Shown here piece after piece: positions 8,162 through 25,502 of a stretch of DNA of 35,217 nt. Position 1 is the stretch's first letter; every line of letters begins with the position of its first letter. Origin of the DNA: an uncultured Chitinophagaceae bacterium (GTDB lineage Bacteria > Bacteroidota > Bacteroidia > Chitinophagales > Chitinophagaceae). Position numbers and translations under genes: made by a program. A model generated the notes under the pieces. That model was not told the origin of the DNA. It saw nothing but the letters and a program-made list of their open reading frames with translations, and ran no database searches. Location of the stretch: the NCBI GenBank assembly GCA_903883945.1, contig CAISCV010000204.1, positions 1-35,217 on the forward strand, read 5' to 3'.

Positions 8162-8460
8162 TGTCGCAATAAGTACAATTAACTTACAAATTGTTCATTA
8201 TTGCGACATTGCGACGCTATTTTTTGTCGCAATAATGACAAACTGCTTGTAAATACGAAGAAATTGCGACATAAAGAGTAATTCTTTTGTCGCAATAAAT
8301 ATATTTGGTGTATGAATAGTAGTAATCTAAATCAATATTTGTCGCAATAGGGTCGTCTTATTTCAAAATAATAAATTTTGCGACATCGCGACGCTATTTT
8401 TTGTCGCAATAATGATACTTCGTTTCTAAAGTTGCAAAAATACAGACATTAGTTGCGACT
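8162..8460. repeat. Periodic array of TGTCGCAAT / ATTGCGACA 9-mers, about 11 sites in alternating orientation forming three 34-nt fold-back units
   Basis: Forward copies at 8162, 8225, 8288, 8340, 8402. Reverse copies at 8200, 8208 (variant), 8263, 8377 (variant), 8385 (variant), 8452 (variant). Loops 16/16/16 nt; outer gaps 29/29/43/28 nt. The segment TTGCGACAtTGCGACGCTATTTTTTGTCGCAATAATGA recurs almost identically at 8201 and 8378. Confidence 0.9.
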
Positions 8461-8464
8461 CGAC

Positions 8465-9958
8465 TTATAGAGAATTAAGTTCGTAATGAGTACTAGGACC
8501 TGAACCTTTGCGGACAATCAGACCCAAATCAAGCATTTTATTTAAATGCCTTTCTGCTTTCTTTGTATCAAATCCGAACTTCTCTTCATAATCCCTTCTC
8601 TTCAATGTAAAAATCAATTTTACAAATTCATAGCCAATTAACTCTTCCTGATTGAGCTCAGATAGTATTTTGTTTGGAGAAACATTCTTTAACCCTTCTT
8701 CACTTCTTGGGAATGTGAAAACTATATAAGGAGCATCATAGGTAACTATTGGAAGTGGCAAATTATTATTTTGTGGCAAATCCCTAATTGTTGAAAAACC
8801 TAAACCCCTATGCTCTACTAACTTCATTTGGTCGAATACATACATAATTTTGGGGTTACGACTAAGTGATGGAGCATTAAAACGCTTAATTTGCTCAATG
8901 GTTAACGGCTCTATAGGTTTACCGGGGCTTTTGATGATGATAGCATCGTCATTAATTTCAAAATAAATTGGCGCACCCTCTATATCATAATCACGATGAA
9001 CTATGGCATTGATGATTGCTTCGCGTAATACTACCAACGGATAATCATAAATAACCTTTCTTTCAGAATTAGTGCGATCTATTTGTTTTCCTATAAGAGG
9101 TTCATACCATGATTGTATTTTATCGGGTTGTAAAATTAATGGACCATCTATGGTTTCAATATTTTCACCGCGCCCCTTTGTTTTAAAAGTTGCACGAATG
9201 AGGGAATTTTGATACATTAATTGAGGTCTTTCGCCAAATAAAAGTAAACCCATGCCAGTGGGTACATATCCTTTATCTGTAAGAACTAAAACGCCCAAAT
9301 AAGTAAGAATTTTGTGAAACTTAGATGTATTCAATTCTACATTCAATTTTGCGCTTTTGATAAAAGATTCTAAATGAACAATAGACAAATCTTCTAAATC
9401 TGCCCTTATTTCAATTTTTTCTTTAGTAGATAATACTGAAGCTTCCGTTTCTTCTTTAGCCTTCTTGGCTCTTTCTTCAGCTTCTTGAATAAATTGTTTA
9501 TTTGCTTCCCTAATTTGCTTTTGTAGGTCGGCATCAAACAATTCCACTTCAACACCATTATCAATAAGATATTTAATACCTTTTCTATCGACAGATGGGT
9601 CAGGGTCTTCAATGCCTATCCAAACCTTTTTGATACGGGCATTTACAATACGTTCAGCACAACCCAGTTTGGGATGTTTTCTGGCTCCTGGAGCGCAAGG
9701 CTCAAGAGTAGCGAATAAAAGAGAGCCATCCAAGCTATTACTTCTGTTTTTTCTTTCCAACAAAGTAAATTCTGCATGGTCGCCATGGCGAAGCTCACCT
9801 CTAAAAGCAGTTTCTTCTTTTCCATCGGGTGTTATTAATACAGCACCTACTTTAGGGCTTACTTTGTCTTGTCTTGGCTCTTGAATTGAGAGATTCATAA
9901 TCTCTATAGCCATCTCCATATATTTGCGAGGGTTGAAACCTTCTTTATTTTTTGCCAT
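8465..9958 (-). CDS. Cytidine/RibD-like zinc deaminase fused to a RecG-like ATP-binding (HATPase_c_4/AlbA-associated) domain and winged helix
   Basis: N-terminus: GAVL, GDHAEF (HAE), TLEPCAPGARKHPKLGC. Middle and C-terminus: PLVVLREAIINAIVHRDY, KSPGKPIEP, NPKIMYVFDQMKLVEHRGLGFSTI; C-terminal helix-rich HTH-like region. Confidence 0.8.
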   Translation of the reverse strand: MAKNKEGFNPRKYMEMAIEIMNLSIQEPRQDKVSPKVGAVLITPDGKEETAFRGELRHGDHAEFTLLERKNRSNSLDGSLLFATLEPCAPGARKHPKLGCAERIVNARIKKVWIGIEDPDPSVDRKGIKYLIDNGVEVELFDADLQKQIREANKQFIQEAEERAKKAKEETEASVLSTKEKIEIRADLEDLSIVHLESFIKSAKLNVELNTSKFHKILTYLGVLVLTDKGYVPTGMGLLLFGERPQLMYQNSLIRATFKTKGRGENIETIDGPLILQPDKIQSWYEPLIGKQIDRTNSERKVIYDYPLVVLREAIINAIVHRDYDIEGAPIYFEINDDAIIIKSPGKPIEPLTIEQIKRFNAPSLSRNPKIMYVFDQMKLVEHRGLGFSTIRDLPQNNNLPLPIVTYDAPYIVFTFPRSEEGLKNVSPNKILSELNQEELIGYEFVKLIFTLKRRDYEEKFGFDTKKAERHLNKMLDLGLIVRKGSGPSTHYELNSL

Positions 9959-19328: not shown

Positions 19329-20570
19329 TTAACTTGTTAGGAATTTGGTGTAATCCAATTTCACATCATCATTGAAGCTGTCTAAATAGTTTTCGGTAAC
19401 TGCTACAGAACTATGCCCCAATGATTCTTTGATAAACTCCGTAGAAACACCCCTGCGCTTCATTACAGTTGAAAAAGTATGCCTAGCTGCGTAAGTACCT
19501 ATCTTTTGGTCTATGCCTAATTCTTTCCGTATCTTCTCCATTCTTAAGTTTACCCATTTTATAAAGCGTTTACAACGATTTTTTACCGTGATGGGGTTTA
19601 AACCTGTTTCGAGGATTGGGAATAAATAAGGATTTGAGGAATCTGTATTTTTCCACTTTTCCACTATTGCCAATGCTTTTGGATGCAAGCCTATTTTAAT
19701 TGGGCGTAAATCCTTCTTCTTGGTATTCTTAGTTTTTTGACGGATAAAATTCAAATAGCTGCCATCAATATTTGAAGGTTTTAATTGGACAATATCAGCG
19801 AAGTTAATGCCACTGCATAAATATGATAGAATCCAAAAATCTAGTGCCTTTTGTTCGTCTTCTTTTGTTGGAGTATGATTAAGTAATTTATTTATTTCAA
19901 TGTCTGATAAAGCCTTTTTAATATTTTGTCCGGATGGGATTTCGTATTTTTTGAATGGGTATTTTTCTTGTTGGAGTAAACCCGCAGCAATTACTTGATT
20001 TATTATAGCACGAAGCTGGCGAAGATAGATTCCAATAGTAGTATTTGAATTACCCTTATTAAGCATATAAGCCTCATATTCCTCCAATAAAGCTGGGGTT
20101 ACATCTTGTATGTGCAAGCCCTTTTTGAACTCATTTAAGGAGTTAATAGTAGTCCTGTATGAAGAAGCTGTACCAACCCTGCCTTTATCATTTAGTGTTT
20201 TTACATAGGTATCAAACCAATGCTGCAAAGCAGTATTATTATTAGTTTTTGTAACTGAATTACTGTAAAACAAATCTTCAAAAGCAATAAATGAAAAAGG
20301 AACTAAATCAGCAATAATCTTTTCTGCCTTTTGCTGTTTTGTATTTAGTATATTTTTTATTTCCTTTAAATTTGAATCTCTTAGCTTGGAACTATTTAAT
20401 TTTTCCCACTCTTGAATTGTTGCATGACAATTGGTTGAGAATCTTTTTTTATTTGGTTTGCAATAGATTACCATTTTAATTAAGCACTTATTTTCGGCAT
20501 TGGGTTTTGTCTTTTCAAGGTAAAAACTAACCGTAACATTCTGTTCTAACATGGTAATTCTATTAAGCAT
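19329..20570 (-). CDS. Tyrosine recombinase/integrase (Bacteroidetes type)
   Basis: Arm-type N-terminus (VSFYLEKTKPNAENKCLIKMVIYCKPNKKRFST), SAM-like domain, catalytic AARHTFSTVMKRRGVSTEFIKESLGHSSVAVTENYLDSF. ATG at 20570 or 20552 more likely than the track start at 20627. Confidence 0.93.
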   Translation of the reverse strand: MLNRITMLEQNVTVSFYLEKTKPNAENKCLIKMVIYCKPNKKRFSTNCHATIQEWEKLNSSKLRDSNLKEIKNILNTKQQKAEKIIADLVPFSFIAFEDLFYSNSVTKTNNNTALQHWFDTYVKTLNDKGRVGTASSYRTTINSLNEFKKGLHIQDVTPALLEEYEAYMLNKGNSNTTIGIYLRQLRAIINQVIAAGLLQQEKYPFKKYEIPSGQNIKKALSDIEINKLLNHTPTKEDEQKALDFWILSYLCSGINFADIVQLKPSNIDGSYLNFIRQKTKNTKKKDLRPIKIGLHPKALAIVEKWKNTDSSNPYLFPILETGLNPITVKNRCKRFIKWVNLRMEKIRKELGIDQKIGTYAARHTFSTVMKRRGVSTEFIKESLGHSSVAVTENYLDSFNDDVKLDYTKFLTS

Positions 20571-20693
20571 TGCGACCACAAATGCGACCATAAAGATACG
20601 GAATAAAGCTAAATAAAGTAGTAACAAAAGAAAATAAAAGAAGATTATAGGTTTAAATATTCTAAAAATGATAGCAAAAGATAGTATAAGAAA

Positions 20694-20750
20694 GGTAGCA
20701 GCCCCGACTCATAATCAGGGGGTCCCTGGATCATGCCCAGGTGGGCCCAC
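20694..20750 (+). other. 3' fragment of tRNA-Met(CAT): attachment-site remnant (attR-like)
   Basis: GGTAGC...cccga-CTCATAA-tcagg...cctgg-ATCATGC-ccagg-TGGGCCC-A: anticodon arm, T-arm and 3' acceptor strand present. No GGGCCCA 5' acceptor strand upstream; T-loop degenerate. Confidence 0.75.
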
Positions 20751-20758
20751 ACTACTCT

Positions 20759-23621: not shown

Positions 23622-23852
23622 AAAATCTCTAGAAACCCAGCGCAAATCTTTGGGAATGCGACGAAAATCTCTAGGAACCTGGAGCAAATCTCCAGAAACC
23701 TAGCTTAAATCTCTGGAAACGCGACATAAATCTCTAGGAATGCGGAATAAAACTCCGGGAACGCAATACAAATCTCTGGGAACCTAGCTTAAAACATTGG
23801 AGACTTCACACAGGTCTCCAGAAACCTAGCTTAAATCGTTAGAGATATAGCC
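23622..23852. repeat. Tandem array of 11 degenerate 21-bp units (consensus ~ nAAATCTCTrGrAACcyrGnn)
   Basis: Units start at 23622, 23643, 23664, 23685, 23706, 23727, 23748, 23769, 23790, 23811 and 23832 with no indel between them. Confidence 0.9.
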
Positions 23853-23912
23853 TAAAAAAAAGAAATCAAGTGATTTGGAAAAAACATTTTTAATTAATTT
23901 AAATTATATTTC

Positions 23913-24587: not shown

Positions 24588-24666
24588 TAATGGCTTTACG
24601 CCTCTGGTAGAAGTAGCATCGTTTTGGTTACACGCCACAAATACGCTAAGGATTCAGGATGGAAAG

Positions 24667-24738
24667 ATGAAAAAAAAGAGAATAATAATCCCGTCTTTTC
24701 TTACTGGTATCCTCGGTGTTTTTGTGGTTATTTTATGA
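24667..24738 (+). CDS. Short hydrophobic peptide or truncated gene start (MKKKRIIIPSFLTGILGVFVVIL)
   Basis: ATG and signal-anchor-like sequence; the TGA stop lies at the exact left edge of the 105-bp repeat array. Confidence 0.35.
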   Translation: MKKKRIIIPSFLTGILGVFVVIL

Positions 24739-25288
24739 AAACAATTTGCCACGAAGCCCCAAAGACAGAAAGAAGCACAAAGTATAGTCTATTTCTTTTG
24801 GTTTCCCTTAGTGCCGCTTTGCGACTTAGAGCCTTAGTAGCGAAAACAATTTGCCACGAAGCCCCAAAGACAGAAAGAAGCACAAAGTATAGTCTATTTC
24901 TTTAGGTTTCCCTTAGTGCCGCTTTGCGACTTAGAGCCTTAGTAGCGAAAACAATTTTCCACGAAGCCCCAAAGACAGAAAGAAGCACAAAGTATAGTCT
25001 ATTTCTTTTGGTTTCCCTTAGTGCCGCTTTGCGACTTAGAGCCTTAGTAGCGAAAACAATTAGCCACGAAGCCCCAAAGACAGAAAGAAGCACAAAGTAT
25101 AGTCTATTTCTTTTGGTTTCTCTTAGTGCCGCTTTGCGACTTAGAGCCTTAGTGGCGAAAACAATTTTCCACGAAGCCCCAAAGACAGAAAGAAGCACAA
25201 AGTATTATCTATTTCTTTAGGTTTTCCTCAGTGCCGCTTTGCGACTTAGAGCCTTATTAGCGAAAACAATTTGCCACGAAGACCCAAA
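24737..25288. repeat. 105-bp tandem repeat array, 5 full units plus a partial sixth
   Basis: GAAAACAAT recurs at 24737, 24842, 24947, 25052, 25157 and 25262, exactly 105 bp apart. Confidence 0.95.
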
Positions 25289-25502
25289 GACTAAACTTAA
25301 TCGCTTTCTAAACTATGTGCACTATGTATCTAGGTTCCTATATGTTTATTCTTTTTTCTCATTTTTCAAAACCAATTGTATAAACCCATATTATACATAC
25401 CTGGTCTTTCACTTCATTTTTCCTCACAAAACAAATCATTATCTTCATTAGTTAATGCTATTAAAACAGTAAACCTTAAATTGCACACCTAAAACAGTTA
25501 TT

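Follow-up and report, generated by a model that had tools for sequence, protein, structure and literature searches.

The array of 9-bp half-sites in the window, the whole stretch of 35,217 nucleotides analyzed here, is very probably a cluster of cognate DNA sites for the protein encoded beside it, which combines a RibD-like deaminase, a GHKL-type ATPase, and a winged helix. This reading, drawn from sequence comparison, is based on three findings: gene and array are obligately paired, the geometry of the sites is constant, and the sites covary with the winged helix. No published account of such arrays was found in the searched literature, which covered few subscription journals and preprints. 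The genes near the array are all on the minus strand, with the gene of the 497-aa deaminase-ATPase protein (8465-9958) upstream in the sense of transcription and the gene of a 687-aa Argonaute (pAgo) downstream.

The core of the array (8162-8410, minus strand) was delimited by sequence reading, pattern match, repeat score, and module scan. Within its 249 bp, TGTCGCAAT or its complement occurs nine times when up to one mismatch is allowed; seven are exact TGTCGCAAT/ATTGCGACA copies and two (8208 and 8377) have one mismatch. Degenerate half-sites lie on the same strand between the stop codon and the core (8411-8460, e.g., 8440-8448 and 8452-8460), as found by sequence reading and a single match, with one mismatch, to the core 8-mer, and with them the count of about 11 copies in the sequence-only reading holds. 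In the entire 35-kb window, TGTCGCAAT-type matches number 22 compared with 6.8 in shuffles (largest 14), and the repeat score of the array flank was 145 versus 15.6 in dinucleotide shuffles (z=25). Three inverted pairs (8200/8225, 8263/8288, and 8377/8402) each enclose 16 nt with gaps of 29 nt, and direct copies are spaced by 63, 63, 52, and 62 bp, which confirms the loops, gaps, and 63-bp period described earlier. The one shortened period (52 versus 63 bp) is real. The loop (T/C)(T/C)GCGACGCTATTTTT is common to two of the three inverted pairs apart from one base, and the third loop is different, also as described.

The repeating unit seen across loci is a module of a 9-bp half-site (H1), a second one in the same orientation at +12 (H2; +11 in some loci), and an inverted one at about +24 (H3). 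In the window, the H1-H3 distance is 25 instead of 24 and the middle half-site is weak (ATAGCGTCG, inside two of the loops). In the window array, three modules are paired and two half-sites stand alone, all on the minus strand. Module A (8377-8410), the first past the stop codon at +55, has H1 at 8402-8410, a weak H2 at about 8389-8397, and H3 at 8377-8385. Module B (8340-8348; pattern match and module scan) is an H1 alone whose inverted partner is lost, and it marks the interrupted period. Module C (8263-8296, +169) has H1 at 8288-8296 and H3 at 8263-8271 with no recognizable H2. Module D (8200-8233, +232) has H1 at 8225-8233, a weak H2, H3 at 8200-8208, and an extra CGTCGCAAT at 8208-8216. 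The outermost copy, module E (8162-8170; pattern match), is again an H1 alone.

The neighboring 497-aa protein belongs to the COG2865/Schlafen-type ATPase-wHTH family as a deaminase variant. It has Pfam matches to dCMP_cyt_deam_1 (4e-10) and HATPase_c_4 (3.8e-15, above the cut-off), and its match to the RibD profile TIGR00326 (3.9e-15) is under the cut-off of that profile. Its AlphaFold model gave Foldseek matches to 3lmm and RibG/RibD, and the ATPase-wHTH part aligns to 3lmm (DIP2311) over 422 columns with an E-value of 6.6e-13. Residues 10-160 form the RibD-like deaminase with invariant H61, E63, C88, and C100. The ATP-binding motifs of HATPase_c_4 are conserved, including invariant E313, N317, HRDY, SPG, E382, and G387. 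The C-terminal winged helix (residues 428-497; 8468-8677, minus strand) is modeled with helices 437-449, 454-461, and 465-477 and wing strands 481-494 at a pLDDT of about 90. We propose it as the DNA reader from this model and from its divergence, which tracks the half-site. Because residues 10-160 are RibD-like rather than AlbA_2/Schlafen, the protein counts as a relative whose N-terminal part has been exchanged and not as a Schlafen. The bacterial Schlafen type (COG2865: AlbA_2/Schlafen, HATPase_c_4, and wHTH; 3lmm, DIP2311) has a similar ATPase and winged-helix frame, defense-linked neighborhoods and, in a fraction of cases, gene-specific phased repeats beside the gene. The window protein differs by the RibD-like deaminase in place of Schlafen/AlbA_2, and its clade by a stereotyped three-site 63-bp array that is always downstream. 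Schlafen-HK-wHTH proteins are presented as defense-associated RNases in the passages found of one report (PMC12839542), and those passages make no mention of such arrays. The PADLOC Aga_SIR2-PNTD profiles match residues 136-398 of the 497-aa protein, probably because these profiles contain the Schlafen/HATPase frame.

The array goes with the deaminase-HATPase gene. All 20 such genes (the window gene and 19 homologues) have an array after the stop codon, not more than about 90 bp past it in the 19 homologues. The homologues were gathered from a genome sample by protein or domain search and not by repeat search (11 from a class-wide search, 7 from a phylum-wide search, and L153 via PF13749). By an unbiased score of repeated 7-mers in 300 bp against 300 shuffles, the downstream side reached p≤0.007 in 17 of 19 genes scored, with weak values for L042 (p=0.047) and L044 (p=0.093), and the upstream side was significant in two of these 19 genes. 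The sequence-only reading had proposed an array search at homologous pAgo or deaminase-HATPase loci, and the two halves of the search had opposite outcomes, with arrays at all 19 deaminase-HATPase homologues but not at any of 16 further pAgo loci, one of them the second pAgo of the window genome. Upstream of pAgo, the repeat score was significant at one of the 12 loci tested (L116), where an HATPase_c_4 gene lies immediately upstream. No pAgo like that of the window was found in the fetched surroundings of the 19 homologues, and the other window genes had no similarity in the homologue stretches examined except for one weak short match in L131. Since each of the 20 genes has an array of its own sequence at an equal place and spacing, the array does not belong to the Argonaute gene. 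Although the window array sits directly upstream of pAgo, a conserved array-pAgo link is refuted, and the earlier suggestion of a guide or decoy source, or of a regulatory region for the Argonaute, has almost no chance of being correct. The second pAgo gene of the genome (G000:C219:6588-8657, L126) is 44% identical to that of the window.

A degenerate CRISPR or a generic palindromic repeat (REP/BIME, MITE, or island iterons) is scarcely credible either. The 34/29-nt geometry resembles CRISPR, and TTGCGACA-N14-16-TGTCGCAA units are dispersed in an Olsenella genome (G913, Coriobacteriia). However, the 16- and 29-nt intervals both vary and the short 9-nt arms alone are kept, so the CRISPR likeness is superficial, as first judged, and the CRISPR reading is rejected. 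A generic repeat also fits poorly with one locus in the window genome and with a fixed place behind one gene family in a gene-specific sequence, and in the genomes of relatives the array was seen nowhere but behind such genes. No cas adaptation genes were found among the window ORFs searched. In the window genome (314 contigs totaling 4.09 Mb), neither BLAST nor pattern search found a second array copy, and another 196 genomes from its family gave isolated, chance-like single pairs and no array. The window array had no match in Rfam or in a DNA search of plasmids, and a protein search of plasmids, phages, and viral contigs found no full-length deaminase relative. Scanned in public collections, the exact half-site occurs in mostly unrelated contexts, and three viral matches were read as unrelated.

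The module geometry is constant across loci, with the half-site sequence differing by locus. It was found in 18 of 19 loci by a scan that used half-site consensuses picked by eye from k-mer tables, and two modules per locus is the usual number. Of 20 module intervals, 19 measure 60-63 bp, equal to six helical turns, and the exception of 114 bp is the interrupted period of the window. The half-site is ATTGCGACA in the window, ACATAGACA in L043, ACTTGGACA in L047 and L137, TAAGGGACA in L052, ATCGCGACA in L138-L140 and L143, TTCTCGCCA in L049, and TATCCCGCA in L141; all half-sites have a CA ending on the inner side. Distances between half-sites follow those between winged helices (Mantel r=0.46, p=0.0002) and do so after controlling for the ATPase domain (partial Mantel r=0.43), in a set of 16 non-redundant loci with shared ancestry. 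Given the winged helix, deaminase and ATPase distances were not significant in partial Mantel tests.

These results bear on the possibility that the array acts as RNA, transcribed with or after the gene, whose hairpins would bind and inhibit the deaminase as an antitoxin or decoy in the style of ToxI/AvcI type III toxin-antitoxin systems. AvcID (PMC10511110) is a precedent for a deaminase toxin paired with an antitoxin made of RNA, AvcI, and there a nucleotide deaminase is likewise linked to an adjoining non-coding element. The array-gene linkage is constant, and the minus-strand RNA of the window array folds much better than shuffles (-82.6 versus -55.6 kcal/mol, z=-7.1), but good folding is expected of any inverted-repeat array. 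Departures of an arm from the locus consensus lack compensation in the partner arm in 27 of 29 cases, the spacing is fixed at whole helical turns, and the site sequence follows the winged helix and not the deaminase. Many relatives have direct-only or promoter repeats, and with the arm changes uncompensated and direct-repeat versions in relatives, a conserved antitoxin-RNA fold of the ToxI/AvcI kind was not found. ToxI-type antitoxins lie 5' of the toxin gene, whereas the array is 3' of its gene. An RNA antitoxin is thus very improbable, and the structured RNA array once considered is disfavored by the uncompensated arms, helical phasing, and direct-repeat relatives. Winged-helix covariation, uncompensated arms, and direct-repeat relatives favor protein-DNA recognition over an RNA hairpin. 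AvcI is an RNA inhibitor, whereas the window element appears to act like DNA sites that covary with a winged helix.

In deaminase-less relatives with an AlbA_2/Schlafen domain, such repeats as follow the stop codon are often purely direct, 11-12 bp apart, or one per helical turn (four TATCGGACAT in L040, four ATGTCCGATAA in L146, and six AACACGTCAT in L028). Among Bacteroidota relatives of this kind, only a fraction had significant downstream repeats (p≤0.01), namely 4 of about 15 loci in one set and 5 of about 16 in another, and upstream repeats at that threshold were found in none. A set of 36 loci, mostly Coriobacteriia with a few Bacteroidota, had repeats upstream (promoters) in 13 and downstream in 11, with the same motif on both sides of the gene in L193 and L203; L209 has five promoter copies of CAGGTAGAAT. 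These patterns suggest that private sites beside the gene are a common habit in the ATPase-wHTH family. Phased repeats abut the start codon upstream of COG2865-type genes of Coriobacteriia in L188, L189, L193, L203, and L207-L210. In L171 (Odoribacteraceae), three near-identical units of about 54 bp (TTGGGAAAACGACAAxGCAAAAA...) follow an ATPase gene, and L182, a Streptococcus satellite phage relative, has no obvious downstream array.

If the array is a cluster of cognate sites, the C-terminal winged helix would read the 9-bp half-site. Because the modules are six helical turns apart, the 62-63 bp repeat would place bound subunits on one face of the DNA, allowing cooperative assembly, and ATP-dependent pairing of the GHKL domains perhaps clamps the assembled subunits. 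More speculatively, the array may keep the protein at its own locus and control transcription there, and the deaminase effector may be held in check until a signal changes the complex. Such a signal could come from an infecting phage or from a nucleotide that the deaminase or ATPase part senses. As an output of binding, we give local transcription control somewhat less than an even chance. In both genomes counted (the window genome and G686), the module was found once, and since it occurs there solely at its own locus, a distal regulon for the deaminase-HATPase protein is unlikely.

A narrower form of local control keeps the DNA-site reading but gives binding another outcome, with the protein serving only as a transcription factor for a downstream defense gene (pAgo here, hsdR elsewhere), similar to restriction controllers. 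We consider it unlikely, though a serious contender. The window array sits between the deaminase-ATPase gene and a co-directional pAgo gene, hsdR-like genes follow the array in L046 and L138-L140/L143, and the absence of modules elsewhere in the genome fits a local regulator. However, in L043, L045, and L051 at least, the next gene converges on the array, no recognizable defense gene adjoins it in L042, L045, L052, and L142, and a conserved catalytic deaminase is surplus for a plain regulator. A sigma-70 scan of the window array gave nothing above chance, and no promoter stands out. In the deaminase clade, the array is always 3' of the gene and not in its promoter; with converging genes in at least three loci, a simple downstream-gene operator does not fit all cases. 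The multi-operator region that the sequence-only reading had listed is supported as an array of sites for the deaminase-ATPase protein and not as one for the Argonaute.

An attractive but improbable idea is that the array serves as an antitoxin or tether made of DNA, with an effector (deaminase or Schlafen) kept inactive by assembly on its own gene-specific array. Loss of the DNA platform, its topology, or the ATP state during infection would then free the effector. If true, the design would extend generally to COG2865-type proteins, with a private array for each of them.

Two other known systems resemble the cluster of cognate sites. Multi-site autoregulatory operators of wHTH proteins, such as those of AbiEi antitoxins (PMC7319586), also place multiple inverted repeats beside the gene that encodes the binder, but in promoters, whereas the window sites come after the gene and have a six-turn period. 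Plasmid iterons are likewise repeats in helical phase that a wHTH protein encoded next to them reads, but no replication function is indicated at the window locus and the protein is a deaminase-ATPase instead of a Rep. Always placed behind the gene and with a period of six turns, the sites point to an organized nucleoprotein complex rather than a simple repressor site. The arrays would tie a large, little-understood, defense-associated protein family to its DNA targets through sequence alone. As each gene has its own sites, specificity, geometry, and mechanism are directly testable, and with many site-protein pairs readable from genomes, a recognition code may be derivable.

The neighborhoods of the homologues vary and include type I restriction loci. 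Direct repeats flank gene and array in L045, L047, and L051 (38, 23, and 15 bp), and a partial second hsdR start flanks them in L138, which looks like cassette insertion of the pair in these four loci. As a general cassette sign, the flanking direct repeats were not retained, being clear in L045 alone and suggestive in L047 and L051.

The deaminase-ATPase and pAgo genes of the window lie in an island that also has integrase, AbiE, DrmD-like SNF2 helicase, HNH, and TOTE-like genes. We set aside the array as att or arm sites of the island integrase, for which there was no deciding evidence, because the integrase is 11 kb away and the deaminase link accounts for the array. Beside the integrase, 20700-20752 resembles a tRNA in its 3' part (CAT anticodon region), although ARAGORN calls no tRNA. 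It is a probable attachment site, and the island would in that case reach left past the contig end. Near the start of the integrase gene, ATTGCGACC and ATGCGACC lie close together (20569-20590); they are possibly integrase or excisionase sites, and their resemblance to the array may be chance. The Olsenella G913 units number at least 10, several of them 62-63 bp apart, and have the form GGAC..TTGCGACAGTTT-N8-AAAGTGTCGCAA..GTCC (L055, L056, L075, L096, L108, L217, and L218). They share the half-site of the window array at a nearly equal H1-H3 distance, and the three PF13749 genes of G913 sit away from them. The window also contains a 105-bp and a 21-bp tandem repeat, at 24632-25396 and 23623-23853, respectively.
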